A DNA stretch of 64,000 bases, from assembly GCF_009720365.1 (NCBI RefSeq), contig NZ_ML769324.1, forward strand, positions 32,195-96,194. Direction: 5' to 3'. This stretch comes from Catellatospora paridis. GTDB taxonomy: Bacteria; Actinomycetota; Actinomycetes; Mycobacteriales; Micromonosporaceae. Made by a program: the position numbers and the translations under genes. The notes beneath the pieces are model-generated. The model saw only the letters and a list, made by a program, of their open reading frames with translations. It had not been told where the DNA came from and did no database searches. Of this stretch, positions 8,000 to 46,414 are shown in pieces (the stretch's first letter is position 1; each line of letters begins with the position of its first letter).

Positions 8000-9406
8000 C
8001 TATGCCGGGACGGGCGCGCTCCCGTTCACGGCCTGCGCCGATGTGGCGGACACCGCCTCGGCGTCCGCCAGCGCGGCGAACTCCTCGGCGAACGCCTGCT
8101 CGGCCGGAGCGACCGGAGCCGTGCCAGGCGCGGTCGGGGCGGAGCCCGATGCGGCCGGAACCGTGCCCTGGTCGGCTGCGGAGGCCGTGGCCGGTGCGGG
8201 CGAGGCCGCAGGAGCGGCGGCCACGGTGACCGTGGCGCGGGTCGCGGCGGTCAGGGCCTGGTCGAGGTCTGCCCACAGGTCGTCGACGTCTTCCAGGCCG
8301 ACGGACATGCGCAGCAGGTTCGGGGTGATGCCGCCGGTCTGCTTGCCCGCGGCGTCGACCAGCCGGTGGGTCAGCAGTGCCGGGTGCTCGATCAGCGAGT
8401 CGACCGAGCCGAGGCTGACGGCCGGGGTGATCAGGCGCAGCGCGGCGACCACGGCCGCGGCGTCACCGGTCGTCTCGAACGCGATCATCGCGCCGGGGCC
8501 GCGCATCTGGCGGCCGATCAGCCCGCGCGGGTCGTTGCCGGGCAGGCCCGGGTAGTGCACCTTGCCGATGCCGCGGTGCACGGCCAGGCGTACGGCCAGC
8601 GTCGCGGCGGTCGCCTGGGCGGCGCGCACCCGCAGCGGCAGGGTGGCCAGCCCGCGGTGCAGCAGATAGCCGGCCAGCGGGTGCAGCACCGCGCCGGTGA
8701 GGATGCGCACCTGGCGCAGTGCGCCGGCCCGCTGCTCGGCGCAGGCGACCACGCCGCCGAGCACGTCGCCGTGCCCGCCGAGGTACTTCGTGCCGGAGTG
8801 CACCACGTAGGACGCGCCCAGCTTGGCCGGGTTCTGCAGCACCGGCGTGGCGAAGGTGTTGTCGACCAGCACCGGGACGTCACCGGCCTGGATGCACACG
8901 GTGGCGATGTCGACCAGGCCCAGGGTCGGGTTGCCCGGGGTCTCGACCACGACGAGGCCGGTGTCGGGGCGGATCGCGCCCGCGACCTCGTCCTGGTCGA
9001 CCCAGGTCACGGACAGGCCGAGCAGGCCGATCGAGAGCAGGTGGTCGGTGCCGCCGTAGAGCGGGCGTACGGCCACCACGTGCCGCCGGTCGCTCATCAG
9101 GCAGGCCGCCTGCAGCACCGCGGTGATCGCGGCCATGCCGGAGGCGAACGAGACGGCGGCCTCGGTGCCCTCCAGCTCGGCGAGCGCCTGCTCGAAGCGG
9201 GCCGTGGTCGGGTTGTAGAGCCGCTGGTAGACCGGGGTCGCGGCGGTGGCCGCGCCGTCGGCGAACGCACCGAGGGCCGCGCCCGCGGCGACCTGGTCGT
9301 GCATCGGGTACGTGGTGGAGAAGTCCAGCGGGAGCGCGTGCACACCGAGCTCGGCCAGGTCAGCGCGGCCCGCGTGCACGGCACGGGTGTCGACGGCGTA
9401 GGTCAT
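8000..9406 (-). CDS. PLP-dependent trans-sulfuration-family enzyme with C-terminal extension
   Basis: Fold-type I PLP enzyme of the Cys/Met metabolism family (cystathionine gamma-synthase/lyase, methionine gamma-lyase, O-acetylhomoserine sulfhydrylase). The PLP lysine is Lys207 in [34 protein letters not shown] and [10 protein letters not shown] are other family motifs. Exact reaction is undecided. At 468 residues it exceeds the usual 390-400: the last 80 or so residues are Ala/Pro/Thr/Ser-rich and low in complexity. ATG 9406 is the domain start; the open frame upstream overlaps the regulator gene. It is divergent from an Lrp/AsnC gene 60 bp away, which probably controls it. Confidence 0.88.
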
Positions 9407-9466
9407 GGGCGTGATCTTCGGGCCTTCTTCGGCCCCGGTAAACCGGTTCCGAATACTCTTCGGGGT
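9407..9466. promoter_or_regulatory. Divergent promoter region between PLP enzyme and Lrp regulator
   Basis: Only 60 bp separate the two start codons, so the promoters must overlap. It contains AAACCGGTT (9440-9448) and GAATACTCTTCGGGGTAT. Lrp-type regulators commonly bind and control such a shared region; direct binding here is inference. Confidence 0.5.
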
Positions 9467-9937
9467 ATGGCGGAGAACACCGTGCTTGATGCGATCGACG
9501 CGGCGATCCTGCGCGAGTTGCAGAACGATGCGCGGATCTCGAACAAGGATCTGGCGGCGCGCGTCAATGTCGCGGCCTCGACCTGCCTGGAGCGGGTACG
9601 CGCGCTGCAGCGCCGCGGGGTCCTGGCAGGCTTCCACGCCGACGCCGATCCGGCCGCGCTGGGCCGCCCGCTGCAGGCCTACATCGCGGTACGGGTACGC
9701 CCGCACAACCGCGACGTGGTGGAGCCGTTCATCCGCTTCGTGCTGGACCTGCCCGAGACGATCGCACTGAGCCACATCGCCGGCGCCGACGACTTCCTGG
9801 TGCACGTCGCCGTCCGCGACGCCGCCCACCTGCAGCGCCTGCTCCTCGACGGCTTCACCTCCCGCCGCGAGGTGGCCCACCTGGAAACCCAGCTCATCTT
9901 CTCCCACATCCGGAAGTGGGACATCGGCCCGATGTGA
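9467..9937 (+). CDS. Lrp/AsnC-family transcriptional regulator
   Basis: A 156-residue Lrp-type protein: N-terminal winged helix (LDAIDAAILRELQNDARISNKDLAARVNVAASTCLERVRALQRRGVL, about residues 6-53) and C-terminal RAM ligand-binding domain (about 65-150) with the characteristic VEPFIRFVLDLPET...HIAGADDFLVHVAV. Such proteins sense amino acids and often regulate the divergent neighbour, here a PLP-dependent sulfur-amino-acid-type enzyme. ATG 9467 is preceded by CGGGG at short spacing. The long open frame upstream is an antisense shadow. Confidence 0.94.
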   Translation: MAENTVLDAIDAAILRELQNDARISNKDLAARVNVAASTCLERVRALQRRGVLAGFHADADPAALGRPLQAYIAVRVRPHNRDVVEPFIRFVLDLPETIALSHIAGADDFLVHVAVRDAAHLQRLLLDGFTSRREVAHLETQLIFSHIRKWDIGPM

Positions 9938-9943
9938 CTCGGC

Positions 9944-10027
9944 GTGGAAACGAAGATCGCCGTCTCATGTCGAAGCCTCAGGTATGACCCGAGGTTCGGA
10001 CACGAGACGGCGATCCTGAAGTTCCAC
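9944..10027. terminator. Long palindrome between convergent genes, family D
   Basis: Outer arms GTGGAA / TTCCAC enclose GATCGCCGTCTC / GAGACGGCGATC, then TGTCGAA / TTCGGACA and CCTC / GAGG: an interrupted stem about 84 bp in total. It lies seven bases beyond the Lrp stop and 30 bp before the pdxS stop, so it is probably a two-way terminator. No second copy was noticed in the window. Confidence 0.65.
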
Positions 10028-10056
10028 AGTGACCAGCCACGCGGCCGGTCCCGGGT

Positions 10057-10965
10057 TCACCAGCCGCGCTCGGCCAGGCGGTGCGGCTGCGGGATCTCGT
10101 CGACGTTGATGCCGACCATGGCCTCGCCCAGGCCGCGGGAGACCTTGGCGAGAACGTCCGGGTCGTCGTAGAAGGTGGTGGCCTTCACGATCGCCTCGGC
10201 GCGCTGGGCCGGGTTGCCCGACTTGAAGATGCCGGAGCCGACGAACACGCCCTCGGCGCCGAGCTGCATCATCATCGCGGCGTCGGCCGGGGTGGCGATG
10301 CCGCCCGCGGTGAACAGCACGACGGGCAGCTTGCCGGTCTCGGCGATCTCCTTGACCAGCTCGTACGGCGCCTGCAGCTCCTTGGCCGCGACGTAGAGCT
10401 CGTCGGCGGGCAGCGAGGCCAGCTTCTTGATCTCGCCACGGATCTTGCGCATGTGGGTGGTGGCGTTGGAGACGTCACCGGTGCCGGCCTCGCCCTTGGA
10501 GCGGATCATGGCCGCGCCCTCGGTGATCCGGCGCAGCGCCTCGCCCAGGTTGGTCGCGCCGCAGACGAAGGGCACGGTGAACTGCCACTTGTCGATGTGG
10601 TTGGCGTAGTCGGCCGGGGTCAGCACCTCGGACTCGTCGACGTAGTCGACGCCGAGCGCCTGGAGCACCTGGGCCTCGACGAAGTGGCCGATGCGGGCCT
10701 TGGCCATGACCGGGATGGAGACGGCGTTGATGATGCCGTCGATCATGTCGGGGTCGCTCATGCGGGACACGCCGCCCTGGGCGCGGATGTCGGCGGGCAC
10801 GCGCTCCAGCGCCATGACGGCGACGGCGCCGGCGTCCTCGGCGATCTTCGCCTGCTCCGCGTTGACGACGTCCATGATCACGCCGCCCTTGAGCATCTCG
10901 GCCATACCGCGCTTCACGCGGGCGGTGCCGGTCACCGGTACGTTCACAGACTCGGTTGCAGACAT
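10057..10965 (-). CDS. pdxS: Pyridoxal 5'-phosphate synthase lyase subunit PdxS
   Basis: Builds PLP from ribose 5-phosphate, glyceraldehyde 3-phosphate and ammonia delivered by PdxT, as a dodecameric (beta/alpha)8 enzyme. The 302-residue product contains [35 protein letters not shown] with a catalytic Lys, [15 protein letters not shown] and the phosphate-binding [30 protein letters not shown] 10965 follows AGGAGAAG. A TGTGA-N6-TCACA palindrome lies 162 bp upstream. Confidence 0.97.
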
Positions 10966-42149: not shown

Positions 42150-43685
42150 CTAGTAGACGGCGCTGTGCAGGTCCAGCCGGCGCAGCACGTCGTCCACCGC
42201 CTCGGGCTCGCGTGTCCGGTGGTCGAGCACCGCGGCCCGCGAGGCCGCCAGCAGCTCCGCCCGCACGTCACCGAGGCGCTGGCGCTGGCGTACCCAGTCG
42301 TCGTCCTCCGCCTCCTCGTCGACGAGAATGGCGCGCTGCCACTGCGCCAGCCGGTGCGCGGTCTCCGCGCTCACCGTGCCGTCGGCCCGCAACTGCTCCA
42401 GGCGGCGTTGCCCGGCCTCCTGGGCCATCGCGATGACCTCCTGTTCGGCCTGGCGGCGGCGTTTCGCGCCGGTGCTCAGCCCGAGCCGCTTCACGAGCCA
42501 GGGCAGCGTCACGCCGGGCAGCAGCAGGGTGACCACGGCGACCACCGCCGCCACGAACACGATCTGCGAGCGGGCCGGGAAGTCCCTGGGCAGTGCCAGC
42601 GCGGTCGCGATGGTGACCACCCCGCGCATGCCCGCCCACGCCACGATCAGGGTCTCGCCCCACCCCACCGGCACGTCCGCGGGATCGCGCGAGCCCATCC
42701 GCTTGGCCAGCCCGCCGACGCCGAACATCCACGCGAAGCGCACCGCCACCAGGGTGAGGCAGATCAAAATCGCGAAGCGGGTGTACGGCCACACGCCCGC
42801 GTCCAGGTCGTCGAGCGCCTCGATGAACTCCAGCCCGATCAGCCCGAAGGTGAAGCCGGTGACCAGCTCCTCCACCACGTCCCAGAAGTTGCGTCCGGAC
42901 AGCCGCCCGGCGACGTCGTCGGGGTCGGCCCGGGTCGCGCCCAGCCAGAACCCGGCCGCGAGCACCGCCAGCACCCCGCTGGCGTGCACGGAGTCGGCGG
43001 TGAGATACGCGGCGTACGGGGTGAGCAGGCTCAGCCCGGCCCGCAGCTCGGCGGTCGGCAGCCGGTCGAACAGCCAGCCGAAGACGATCCCGGCGGCCAG
43101 GCCGACGCCGGCGCCGGCCGTGGCCGTGTAGCCGAACGAGGCGACCGCGCTCCAGACCGACAGCGTTCCGGTGAGCACTCCGGCCACCGCGACCTGGTAG
43201 ATGGTCAGCGCGGTGACGTCGTTGAACAGCCCTTCCCCTTCGAGCAGGGTGACGGTGCGGCGGGGCAGGCCCAGCCGGCCGGCCATCGCGGAGACGGCGG
43301 CCGGGTCGGGCGGGGAGGTGATCGCGCCGAGCACCACGGCCGCGCCCAGCGCCAGCGCGGGGTGGACGGTGGCCGCGACGGCGGCGACCGCGGCCGTGGT
43401 CACGAAGACCAGGGCGACCGCGAGCAGCAGGATGGGCTTCCAGCCGCGCGCGAAGCGCCGCCAGGAGCTGCGCTGGACCGCGGCGAACAGCAGCGGCGGC
43501 AGCAGCACGGGCAGGATGACTTCGGGATGCAGGGACAGCGAGCGGCCGGGCAGCAGGCCGAGCGCGGCGCCGAACACGGTGGCCACCACGGGCGCCGGCA
43601 GTCGCAACCGTGCGCCGACCGGCACGCAGAGCAGACCGAGCACCAGCAGCACGAGGATGACGGTGCGTTGGTCCATACCGCCCAT
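42150..43685 (-). CDS. CPA1-family Na+/H+ antiporter
   Basis: Cation/proton exchanger of 511 residues with about 12 membrane helices followed by a cytoplasmic tail of about 120 residues. Family landmarks: the ion-binding region ITSPPDPAAVSAM (usually ITDPVAV..), EGEGLFNDVTALTIYQ, and WAGMRGVVTIATALALP. The insertion changing TDP to TSPPDP is common in actinobacterial NhaP-like proteins. MGGMDQ at 43685 or MDQ at 43676 may be the start. The upstream 476 bp hold a structured segment that may control it. Confidence 0.9.
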   Translation of the reverse strand: MGGMDQRTVILVLLVLGLLCVPVGARLRLPAPVVATVFGAALGLLPGRSLSLHPEVILPVLLPPLLFAAVQRSSWRRFARGWKPILLLAVALVFVTTAAVAAVAATVHPALALGAAVVLGAITSPPDPAAVSAMAGRLGLPRRTVTLLEGEGLFNDVTALTIYQVAVAGVLTGTLSVWSAVASFGYTATAGAGVGLAAGIVFGWLFDRLPTAELRAGLSLLTPYAAYLTADSVHASGVLAVLAAGFWLGATRADPDDVAGRLSGRNFWDVVEELVTGFTFGLIGLEFIEALDDLDAGVWPYTRFAILICLTLVAVRFAWMFGVGGLAKRMGSRDPADVPVGWGETLIVAWAGMRGVVTIATALALPRDFPARSQIVFVAAVVAVVTLLLPGVTLPWLVKRLGLSTGAKRRRQAEQEVIAMAQEAGQRRLEQLRADGTVSAETAHRLAQWQRAILVDEEAEDDDWVRQRQRLGDVRAELLAASRAAVLDHRTREPEAVDDVLRRLDLHSAVY

Positions 43686-43811
43686 TGCACGTCATGACCT
43701 GGCGTTAACAGCGGCACGACACGATCAAGAGACGGCCATGGATTTCGTGCGAGTTTGTTGGTAGTCTCGCCGAAGTAACGACGGCAGCCACCCTGCCGCG
43801 GGCAGAGAGCA

Positions 43812-43850
43812 CCGCCCGCTCCGGTGATGATCGGGCACCGGAGCGGGCGG
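43812..43850 (-). terminator. Terminator-like hairpin in antiporter leader
   Basis: CCGCCCGCTCCGGTG and CACCGGAGCGGGCGG are perfect 15-bp arms with a nine-base loop. It ends no gene: both neighbours diverge from it. Read on the minus strand it follows the structured segment 43868-43979 by 17 bases and precedes the antiporter, as an expression-platform terminator would. Confidence 0.6.
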
Positions 43851-43867
43851 GCAACTGCGAGATTTAT

Positions 43868-43979
43868 GGTCGGTGCGTGCGGTCGCCTCGCGGCGAGTGG
43901 CGCGACACGGCTCCAGCCGAACGGTATTCCGTGAAGGCTTTTGTAAGTGAGGCCCGGGGACACTGTCCACGCACCGACC
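43868..43979 (-). ncRNA. Candidate structured leader RNA upstream of antiporter
   Basis: GGTCGGTGCGTG (43868-43879) and CACGCACCGACC (43968-43979) close a perfect 12-bp stem around 88 nt. Inside, on the minus strand, three hairpins can form: GGAC-AGU-GUCC, CACGG...CCGUG (with GGC-UGGA-GCC inside) and GUCGC...CUCG-CCG-CGAG-GCGAC. A long closing stem with a multi-branch interior followed by a terminator-like hairpin is a riboswitch-like plan. It matches no class I know (not ydaO, M-box, T-box, cobalamin, SRP or tRNA). Plus-strand expression toward the FHA-ABC gene is the alternative. Confidence 0.45.
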
Positions 43980-44024
43980 TCGACCACCTTAGCTCCGAAA
44001 TCCGCGCGCGCCGAACACCGCCGC

Positions 44025-44040
44025 CGTGACGATCTTCACG
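44025..44040. promoter_or_regulatory. CRP-like palindrome upstream of FHA-ABC gene
   Basis: CGTGACGATCTTCACG fits GTGA-N6-TCAC exactly and lies 122 bp before the chosen GTG start of the FHA-ABC gene. Confidence 0.45.
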
Positions 44041-44161
44041 ATGGTGCGGGAATATCACCCGGACGCGCGGGCCTGCCCCCTGCTCGATCGGGTTCCCGAC
44101 GGCGGCCGGATCCGACCGGATGGCGCTTGATCTGCACTGGTCTTGCCGCAAGGATGTGCGA

Positions 44162-46414
44162 GTGTCAACAGACCCCTCCATCTCCCGCACGCCTCGACGC
44201 CGCAAGAGCGCCGCCTCAGCGGTCGCCTCCGGACAGACGACCGCCGCCGACGGCTCGATCCGCACCCGGCTCGGGCGCGACGCCGACAACGACATCGTGC
44301 TGGCCGACCTGCAGGCCTCACGCCACCACGCCGAGATGCGCCGCCTCGGCGACGCCTTCCACATCGTCGACCTGGGCAGCCGCAACGGCACCTTCCTCAA
44401 TGGACGGCAGGTGCAGAAGGCAACCCTGATGCACGCCGGCGACATCGTCTCGATCGGGCGGCACGAGCTGCTCTTCGACGGCGTGCAGCTGCACGACCAC
44501 GTCGACACCGGCCCCGCGTCGATCATCGCCGACGACCTCACGGTGCGCCTGGGCAACAAGGTGCTCATCGACGACGTCAGCTTCGCCCTGCCCGAGGGCA
44601 GCCTGCTCGCCCTGATCGGCCCCAGCGGCTGCGGCAAGTCCACGCTGCTCAAGGCACTGACCGGGCTGCGCCCGGCCACCCAGGGCCGGCTCTGGTACGG
44701 CGGGCGCGACCTCTACGCCGACTACGCCCAGTTGCGCTACCGCATCGGCATGGTGCCCCAGGACGACGTGCTGCACAAGCAGCTCAAGGTGCGCACCGCG
44801 CTGCGCTTCGCGGCCGCGCTGCGCTTCGCCGACGACGTGCCGCGCAAGGTGCGCTGGGCCAAGGTCGACGAGGTCATGGACACCATGCGGCTCACCCCGC
44901 GCGCCAAGGCCCGCATCGACGTGCTCTCCGGCGGCCAGCGCAAGCGCGCCTCGGTGGCGATGGAGCTGCTCACCGAGCCGTCGCTGCTGTGCCTGGACGA
45001 GCCCACCTCGGGCCTGGACCCGGCGCTGGACAAGGAGGTGATGGGCGAGCTGCGGGAGCTGGCCGACAAGGGCAAGACCGTCGTCGTCGTCACGCACAGC
45101 GTGCTGCACCTGGACATCTGCGACCGGGTGCTGGTGATGTGCCTGGGCGGCACGATGGGCTACTTCGGCCCGCCGGACCAGCTGCTCGCCTTCTTCGGCG
45201 CCGAGGACTACGCCGACGTCTTCACGAAGATCACCGAAGAGCCGGAGCGGTGGACCCGAGCCTTCCGCAACTCCCCGCTGTACGCCCGCTACGTCAGCGC
45301 GGTCACCCCGTCCAACCGGGCCGAGCCCGCCGTGCTGCCGGTGCCGCCCGCGCCGGCCGACGTGGTGTTCGACCCGACGGCGACCCAGCAGCCGCTGGTG
45401 CCGACGCAGCGCACCGACGAGCCCGACCTCACGGAGCCCGTCGCGGTGCTGCCCGTGCCCGACGCACCGGTCGACGACGCCGAGCCCGCCTCGGTCAGCG
45501 TCGACGACGCCCTGGCCCGGGTCAGGCCCAACGTGGCCGCCACGAAACCCGGCCGGGCCAACATCGACCGGCGGAAGTTCTCACTGTTCGCGCGGAACCC
45601 CAGCGCGCCCATCCGGCAGTACTTCACGCTCTGCCTCCGGATGATCAACGTCATCCTGTCGGACCGGGGCTTCAGCGCGTTCCTGCTGGCCATGCCGCTG
45701 ATCCTGGCGGTGCTCGCCTATACGGTCCCGGGCTCGGACGGCCTGGTCAAGCTGCCCGGTTTCAGCCTGCAGGCACAACAGCTCCTGGTGGTGCTGGTGA
45801 CCGGTGCGGCCTTCCTGGGCACCGCCGCCTCGGTCCGGGAGATCGTCGCCGAAGCGCCGATCTACGCCCGGGAACGGGCCGTGGGTGTGTCGGCCGCGGC
45901 ATACCTGAGTTCGAAGATCACGGTCTTCTTCATCATCAACACCGCGCAGGTGGCACTGTTCGTCTACCTGACGCTGTTCGAGGGCCCGCCGACGGAGTCG
46001 CTGGTCATCCCGAGCCAGACCGCGGAGATCATCGTCGCCATGGTCGGCATCTCCCTGGTGTCGACGGTGTTCGGCCTGCTCGTCAGCGCGCTGGCCCGCA
46101 CCACGGAGCAGACCACCCCGATCATGGTGGTCCTGGTCATGGCGCAGCTGGTGTTCTCCGGCGGCCTGTTCGTGCTGGCCGGGCAGCAGGTCATGGAGAT
46201 CATCTCCTGGATCTTCCCGACCCGCTGGGGCTTCGGCGCGGCGGCGGCCACGGTCGACGTCGGCGCGATGCTGCCCAAGACCTTCCAGGATCCGCTGTTC
46301 ACGCACACCGCCGAGAACTGGATCAAGTGCATGGTCCTACTCGGCGTGCAGATGATCGTGCTGATCTTCCTCACCCGCCTGGCGCTGCGCCGCCACGAGC
46401 CCGGCCGCTCCTGA
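44162..46414 (+). CDS. FHA domain - ABC ATPase - ABC2 permease exporter fusion (Rv1747-like)
   Basis: A 750-residue half-exporter. Residues about 30-110 form a phosphothreonine-binding FHA domain (TRLGRDADNDIVLADLQASRHHAEM; LGSRNGTFLNG). Residues about 125-335 are an ABC ATPase with Walker A GPSGCGKST, signature LSGGQRKRASVAME, Walker B LLCLDEPTSGLDP. A Pro/Asp/Val-rich linker leads to a C-terminal ABC2-type membrane domain with six helices. In Mtb Rv1747 the FHA domain binds kinase PknF and the protein affects lipid/PIM export. GTG 44162 was chosen for AAGGA eight bases upstream; ATG 44120 has none. Confidence 0.93.
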   Translation: MSTDPSISRTPRRRKSAASAVASGQTTAADGSIRTRLGRDADNDIVLADLQASRHHAEMRRLGDAFHIVDLGSRNGTFLNGRQVQKATLMHAGDIVSIGRHELLFDGVQLHDHVDTGPASIIADDLTVRLGNKVLIDDVSFALPEGSLLALIGPSGCGKSTLLKALTGLRPATQGRLWYGGRDLYADYAQLRYRIGMVPQDDVLHKQLKVRTALRFAAALRFADDVPRKVRWAKVDEVMDTMRLTPRAKARIDVLSGGQRKRASVAMELLTEPSLLCLDEPTSGLDPALDKEVMGELRELADKGKTVVVVTHSVLHLDICDRVLVMCLGGTMGYFGPPDQLLAFFGAEDYADVFTKITEEPERWTRAFRNSPLYARYVSAVTPSNRAEPAVLPVPPAPADVVFDPTATQQPLVPTQRTDEPDLTEPVAVLPVPDAPVDDAEPASVSVDDALARVRPNVAATKPGRANIDRRKFSLFARNPSAPIRQYFTLCLRMINVILSDRGFSAFLLAMPLILAVLAYTVPGSDGLVKLPGFSLQAQQLLVVLVTGAAFLGTAASVREIVAEAPIYARERAVGVSAAAYLSSKITVFFIINTAQVALFVYLTLFEGPPTESLVIPSQTAEIIVAMVGISLVSTVFGLLVSALARTTEQTTPIMVVLVMAQLVFSGGLFVLAGQQVMEIISWIFPTRWGFGAAAATVDVGAMLPKTFQDPLFTHTAENWIKCMVLLGVQMIVLIFLTRLALRRHEPGRS

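Follow-up and report, generated by a model that had tools for sequence, protein, structure and literature searches.

Several described RNA systems are close to the element presented here in one respect or another. The mycobacterial 6C RNA (RF01066) reportedly pairs with mRNAs through a C-rich stretch, independently of any chaperone; ANTAR-target RNAs, in turn, need paired hexaloop hairpins. As regards stress control, tmRNA has reportedly been found to be a SigR target, and SigH shares the promoter consensus of SigR. This consensus has been published as GGAAT-N18-19-GTT (PMC9205884). Furthermore, Ms1 (scr3559) is a widespread actinobacterial small RNA, found by structure together with gene synteny, predicted to be 220–235 nt long in S. 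coelicolor and linked to a HAD hydrolase gene (PMC9130861).

The DNA analysed here, referred to as the window, is a stretch of 64,000 nucleotides from Catellatospora paridis (contig NZ_ML769324.1, positions 32,195 to 96,194). The original prediction had placed in it a riboswitch-like leader of a Na+/H+ antiporter gene. According to the comparison described below, the structured element beside the antiporter is most likely not its switch; it is probably a member of a family of stand-alone, stress-controlled small structured RNA genes of the class Actinomycetes, acting in trans. The fold, the sense strand, the upstream promoter, the terminator-like hairpin and the spread of this putative RNA gene are supported by the comparison of its copies. 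Like Ms1, the RNA is widespread in actinobacteria, but it is about 110 nt long and has no constant neighbour. It shares a C-rich stretch with 6C, from which it differs in its fold, with no Rfam match to 6C; the ANTAR-target RNAs of actinobacteria are also structured and carry two hairpins, whereas the present RNA has a GNRA tetraloop and a multi-stem core. The SigR/SigH regulon is known for protein genes, whereas here an RNA gene is concerned, and an RNA of this kind was not found as a member of that regulon in the literature searched. An assignment to 6S or Ms1 (rods of 160–300 nt with a central bubble, with HAD synteny in the case of Ms1) was rejected, given the length of about 110 nt, the multi-stem core and the lack of a constant neighbour.

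The features of the locus are collected in Table 1. The 12-bp stem with 88 nt inside, predicted from the window alone, is present as described, and so is the 15-bp hairpin (43812–43826 with 43836–43850). The divergent gap between the two flanking genes measures the predicted 476 bp if one start codon of the ABC transporter gene is used, and 434 bp with the other.

Table 1. Positions of the small RNA, its elements and its neighbours in the window.
Feature	Position	Strand	Evidence
Small RNA core, about 112 nt	43868..43979	(-), read 43979 -> 43868	Match to covariance model R2
P1 closing stem, 5' strand	43968..43979	(-)	All 10 modelled P1 pairs covary
P1 closing stem, 3' strand	43868..43879	(-)	All 10 modelled P1 pairs covary
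J1/2, near-invariant segment GUGUCCCCGGGCCUCA	43948..43963	(-)	Alignments A1 and A3; unpaired in the structure used
P2 hairpin, variable in sequence, covarying	43900..43938	(-)	8 of 10 pairs change on both sides
P3 hairpin, near-invariant, GNRA loop (GCGA in the window)	43883..43896	(-)	Alignment
Terminator-like 15-bp hairpin, 3' of the RNA	43812..43850	(-)	Window sequence; downstream hairpin enriched in copies
Putative -10 TAAGGT of a sigma-70-like promoter of the RNA	43986..43991	(-)	Inferred, read from the sequence
Putative -35 TTCGGC, 18-bp spacer	44010..44015	(-)	Inferred, read from the sequence
CRP-like palindrome GTGAAGATCGTCAC, upstream of the RNA	44026..44039	.	GTGA-N6-TCAC enriched in copies
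Na+/H+ antiporter gene, local neighbour, no constant partner	42150..43685	(-)	
FHA-domain ABC transporter gene, divergent neighbour	44120..46414	(+)	

Covariance models were built, and covariation was counted over the alignment. A first model (R1) was followed by a second one (R2), built from 109 copies including that of the window, which matches R2 with 110 bits and an E value of 3.7e-23 over positions 43868–43981, the window copy being itself part of the training set; alignment A3 comprises 100 loci picked from about 234 with a limit on Micromonospora redundancy. The comparison supports the order P1, J1/2, P2, J2/3 and P3. In the 109-copy alignment (27 pairs, 108 distinct sequences) standard pairs occupy 92.3% of the pair cells, and 22 of the 27 pairs covary, with 348 cells changed on both sides; none of 500 shuffles attained this, and slid controls were paired to 45.2% at most. 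Because it was fitted to model R1, this alignment leans towards structure. A MAFFT alignment of 23 sequences, made with no model fit, has both sides changed in 10 of 28 pairs, and the RNAalifold covariation term in the 23-sequence alignment is small (-2.4 of -35.5 kcal/mol). These data point to a conserved, covarying, aptamer-like fold.

P1 is 10–12 bp long. Two inner pairs of P2, both among its eight covarying ones, are open in most copies (unformed in 65 of 94 and 75 of 93 sequences, respectively). P3, with the form CGCC-GNRA-GGCG, hardly varies, its outermost pair being unformed in 35 of 108 sequences. Three hairpins had been expected inside the closing stem: two of them, P2 and P3, are conserved, while the third, GGAC...GUCC, occurs in the single-sequence fold and is not conserved. 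J1/2 is only partly open in single-sequence folds, with unpaired probabilities of 0.26–0.60 for its CCCC, 0.10–0.28 for GGG and 0.67–0.78 for CUCA; RNAalifold places within it a 3-bp hairpin that does not covary and was omitted from the structure of R2.

The folding energy of the 112-nt core, compared with shuffled sequence, gives z = -2.3 for the minus strand and -2.9 for the plus strand, so that folding of the core alone slightly favours the latter and is insufficient to assign the strand; for the leader on the minus strand (311 nt), z is -4.0. Read as the minus strand, G-U cells outnumber A-C cells by 90 to 21 over the alignment and by 79 to 9 in P1 alone, and the minus strand of the window is therefore the likely sense strand. 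The positions of promoter and terminator favour it as well, and a structured RNA on the minus strand, as originally proposed, is thus borne out.

The strong conservation inside the fold bears on how the RNA might act. The near-invariant J1/2, J2/3 and P3 could form a binding surface for a regulator. Under stress the RNA would sequester or guide this regulator, be it RNA polymerase, a ribosome factor or an RNA-binding protein, in the manner of 6S, Ms1 or CsrB-type RNAs. Three of the five P3 pairs never vary, the GNRA loop and the invariant columns (46 of 137 in the alignment of the first 23 sequences) go beyond the needs of a pairing seed, and a short form of 81–86 nt, present in several families, keeps P1, a P2 of about 5 bp, the CCCCGGG of J1/2, and P3. 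Nonetheless, the RNA has neither a constant neighbour gene nor a known partner, and it resembles 6S or Ms1 neither in length nor by Rfam, so that we regard this alternative as possible, with some hesitation. The invariance of P3, which appears to exceed the need of a seed-pairing RNA, counts in any case against the explanation that we prefer, i.e. a stand-alone small RNA acting in trans.

The search of Rfam 15 (4227 families) at the gathering threshold retrieved no family over the RNA in the window and in 42 other loci (sets of 20, 16 and 8, two of the eight being already in the set of 20), in agreement with the original view that the element belongs to no known class. The matches lying away from the RNA in the 16-locus set were rRNA, TPP and tRNA. 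With relaxed thresholds, applied to the window and eight loci (E up to 1 for the eight), no family was found over the RNA either; the relaxed matches in the window (mir-8799, mir-1247, sX2 and BcKCsr2) lie below their gathering scores with E > 4 and were discarded. Neither the conserved strings nor a description of such an RNA was found in the literature searched. This search did not cover the supplementary small-RNA lists of Streptomyces papers, and the RNA may therefore stand unnamed, as a bare coordinate, in a transcriptome table. Absent from Rfam 15 and from the literature searched, the predicted RNA would represent a family of actinomycete small RNAs that is new.

A DNA search of 61 genomes (that of the window and 60 relatives) gave matches in 38; since eight of these have only short, weak matches, the count used is 30 of 61, in which the match covers the core with E < 1e-9. 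Scanning GTDB contigs for the conserved pattern returned at least 119 stretches, and the matches listed include Micromonospora, Actinoplanes, Nonomuraea, Actinomadura, Saccharothrix, Amycolatopsis and others. Among 296 genomes sampled from the class, 72 are matched by R1 and 99 by R2, the latter in 48 of 115 genera. Moreover, R2 matches 88 of 121 genomes of the window's family as well as 59 of 101 Streptomyces-like genomes, in which the copy number reaches six. In a phylum-wide sample of 198 genomes, R2 matches were found in 10, all within the window's class, and R1 matches in seven. Some copies are arranged in tandem: at two loci (L019 and L201) each unit has its own promoter, four genomes (G018, G031, G684 and G695) have tandem pairs, and one genome of the window's family has five tandem copies 167 bp apart (G650:C7:111579-112355).

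The RNA is not confined to chromosomes. A plasmid collection yielded 71 matching records at E ≤ 0.01 (58 at 0.001), consisting of 48 from Streptomyces, 21 from Rhodococcus or Prescottella, one from [Kitasatospora] and one, chromosome-sized, from Nonomuraea; the weakest plasmid matches, most of the Prescottella ones included, were left out of the covariance-model test. In the 13 single-contig Streptomyces-like genomes with a match, 17 of 19 copies are no more than 1.5 Mb away from a sequence end (p = 4e-7 if the copies are independent), and so do 11 of 13 when only the innermost copy of each genome is counted (p = 2e-4), on the premise that the sequences begin at the chromosome end. The neighbours of the Streptomyces-like and plasmid copies are varied genes, including those for Ku, ATP-dependent DNA ligase and toxin-antitoxin systems. 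On the Rhodococcus plasmid pWB1, two annotated cation:proton antiporters are found near the RNA (L234:5195-6412 and 9102-10094), the nearer one on the opposite strand.

The plasmid records, the patchy occurrence near sequence ends in Streptomyces-like genomes and the five-copy tandem array might suggest that the RNA is a selfish or mobile element, or a marker of mobile stress islands, conserved for its own replication or maintenance rather than for host regulation. This appears quite improbable, as it has no constant flank, is present in single copy in 73 of the 88 RNA-bearing genomes of the family, and has a conserved promoter; blastn of the window copy against phage records retrieved no match, and none of the four IMG/VR contigs found by the pattern matches the covariance model. 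On the same two results, a phage origin was rejected.

What precedes the RNA is consistent with a gene of its own. The pattern GGAAN-N16-19-GTT occurs within the 60 bases upstream of 82 of the 109 copies, against 0.67 expected by mononucleotide shuffling, and was found neither downstream nor on the antisense strand of these copies. The spacer is 18 in 78 of the 82 sites, the GTT lies 6–15 bases ahead of the core, and the fifth base is C, T or, rarely, G; the logo of 78 sites reads GGAA(C/T)A...GTT(G/A). The form GGAA(C/T)-N18-GTT matches the SigR consensus (PMC9205884). Such a promoter also precedes every one of the 12 plasmid copies analysed; three of them belong to the set of 109 as well, and the 12 come from 13 plasmid loci, L223, a record without annotation, having been omitted. 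The SigR-type promoter is thus found in about three quarters of the copies but not in the window's genus. The 27 copies out of 109 that lack it include that of the window, and in this genus a sigma-70-like TAAGGT or TATGGT, read by eye, stands in place of the GTT. With a promoter of this type, the RNA may therefore be constitutive there, or mainly under CRP control.

A second upstream signal is the palindrome GTGA-N6-TCAC, which resembles a CRP site. It was found, with at most one mismatch, in 38 of the 109 copies, against 2.2 expected from mononucleotide shuffles; its centre lies 49–50 or 63–64 bases ahead of the core in 26 of the 38, and it is kept in 8 of the 11 loci of the window's genus.

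At the other end, the terminator-like hairpin originally seen in the window recurs: 73 of the 109 copies have a downstream hairpin, against 2.8 expected from mononucleotide shuffles and three in an upstream control. A strong hairpin is absent in 36 copies. At least three T within the eight bases after the hairpin were found in 55 copies, whereas the hairpin of the window has no T run, and in the three loci of its genus that have not kept the palindrome (L011-L013) a different hairpin occupies the same place. To judge by sequence, then, the RNA would have both its own 5' promoter and its own 3' terminator, as a stand-alone RNA gene would. The window's hairpin is also weakly matched by short palindromes at other places in Catellatospora and related genomes (81–93%, E 2e-5 to 0.01; L002, G002:C8:450058 and G008:C1:2029572), and looks as if it were a member of a dispersed palindromic repeat. 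Between this hairpin and the antiporter start, positions 43740–43795 form a block common to several genomes of the genus, which may hold the antiporter's own promoter.

The organization of the neighbouring genes was examined in 129 contexts, partly non-independent, with three genes per side called by a simple script. In 66 of them the RNA and the nearest gene downstream share the strand, in 56 that gene is antisense, and in seven no downstream gene was called. The 645 neighbour proteins from these loci fall into 348 clusters, the largest having 14 members, and 20 cluster representatives searched against Pfam gave varied families for 15 and none for five. A constant gene or pathway downstream on the same strand, as expected of a riboswitch, was not found in the 129 contexts, and a constant partner gene was rejected in view of these clusters and their varied families. 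The sigma factors near two plasmid copies are two different ones and were likewise dismissed as constant neighbours; one of them weakly resembles proteins encoded next to the RNA at two Actinomadura loci (E 6e-5 and 1e-4). In six loci (cluster 22: L099, L057 and four others) the gene of a related protein precedes the RNA at a distance of one or two genes; the only member tested, that of L099, is an ECF sigma factor according to Pfam.

These contexts bear directly on the reading in which P1–P3 would be an aptamer and the 15-bp hairpin an expression platform, the whole acting in cis as a riboswitch or attenuator of the Na+/H+ antiporter. Within the window's genus the arrangement mostly fits: in the 31 oriented BLAST loci, examined over 1.5 kb per side, the antiporter follows in sense in 8 of the 11 loci that belong to this genus, that of the window among them, as well as in L014 from another genus. 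However, no antiporter lies within 1.5 kb in the other three loci of the genus; in L015 the RNA lies between these two genes in reverse orientation, with the antiporter on the opposite side; and elsewhere the neighbours vary, the downstream gene being antisense in 56 of 122 cases, while the duplicated units carry their own promoter. An antiporter homologue is a neighbour, among the 129 contexts, only in the window and in one Catellatospora record. Because of these contexts the antiporter riboswitch is largely refuted and was rejected, its probability being minimal. Thus, neither the link to a cation antiporter nor the plan of aptamer plus expression platform, both part of the original prediction, is supported: the strand of the downstream gene is near random, the families are varied and the tandem units have promoters of their own.

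For a stand-alone RNA gene, the following scenario can be depicted. Stress of the SigR/SigH type (thiol-oxidative, heat), or related ECF stress, would induce the RNA, which would work in trans; in some lineages cAMP/CRP would provide a further input. P1, P2 and P3 would present the near-invariant J1/2 (GUGUCCCCGGGCCUCA), whose C-rich character suggests pairing with G-rich ribosome-binding sites; the most likely mechanism, by analogy, would be that J1/2 pairs with the G-rich Shine-Dalgarno regions of mRNAs, much as 6C is said to use its C-rich loops. Since P3 and J2/3 are near-invariant, they may bind a protein or make a tertiary contact.

A search for complements of the conserved 16-mer with two mismatches in the 11 genomes of the genus gave 117 hits, the RNA itself excluded, against 61 for a reversed-pattern control; in the window's own genome, the same search gave 11 against 10. 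The sole recurrent complement with one mismatch (15 of 16) occupies one and the same position in three of these genomes and falls within a gene, on the strand opposite to that gene (G000:C6:383593; L247, L248, L250). With the 23S rRNA of the window's genome, J1/2 gives a duplex energy of -35.2, the best of 30 shuffles giving -34.5, and the longest run (9) is within the shuffled range, as are the values for the two other segments of the RNA; we do not count this as evidence of pairing with rRNA.

A more far-reaching reading, which we consider rather unlikely, is that this undescribed class of structured RNA, carried by about a third of the class genomes sampled (99 of 296) and by some of their plasmids, serves the SigR/SigH-type stress response as a dedicated RNA arm. 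Its near-invariant core (J1/2, J2/3 and P3) would then act in a way that other small RNAs are not known to use, for instance as a ribonucleoprotein on RNA polymerase or ribosomes.

A structured leader beside one gene in one genome can thus prove to be a stand-alone RNA gene. Little has been learned so far about RNA regulators in Streptomyces and its relatives, the producers of many antibiotics. If the proposed explanation is true, the SigR/SigH-type response would gain a non-coding arm across many genera and plasmids, which could be tested by deletion and with RNA-seq data that already exist.
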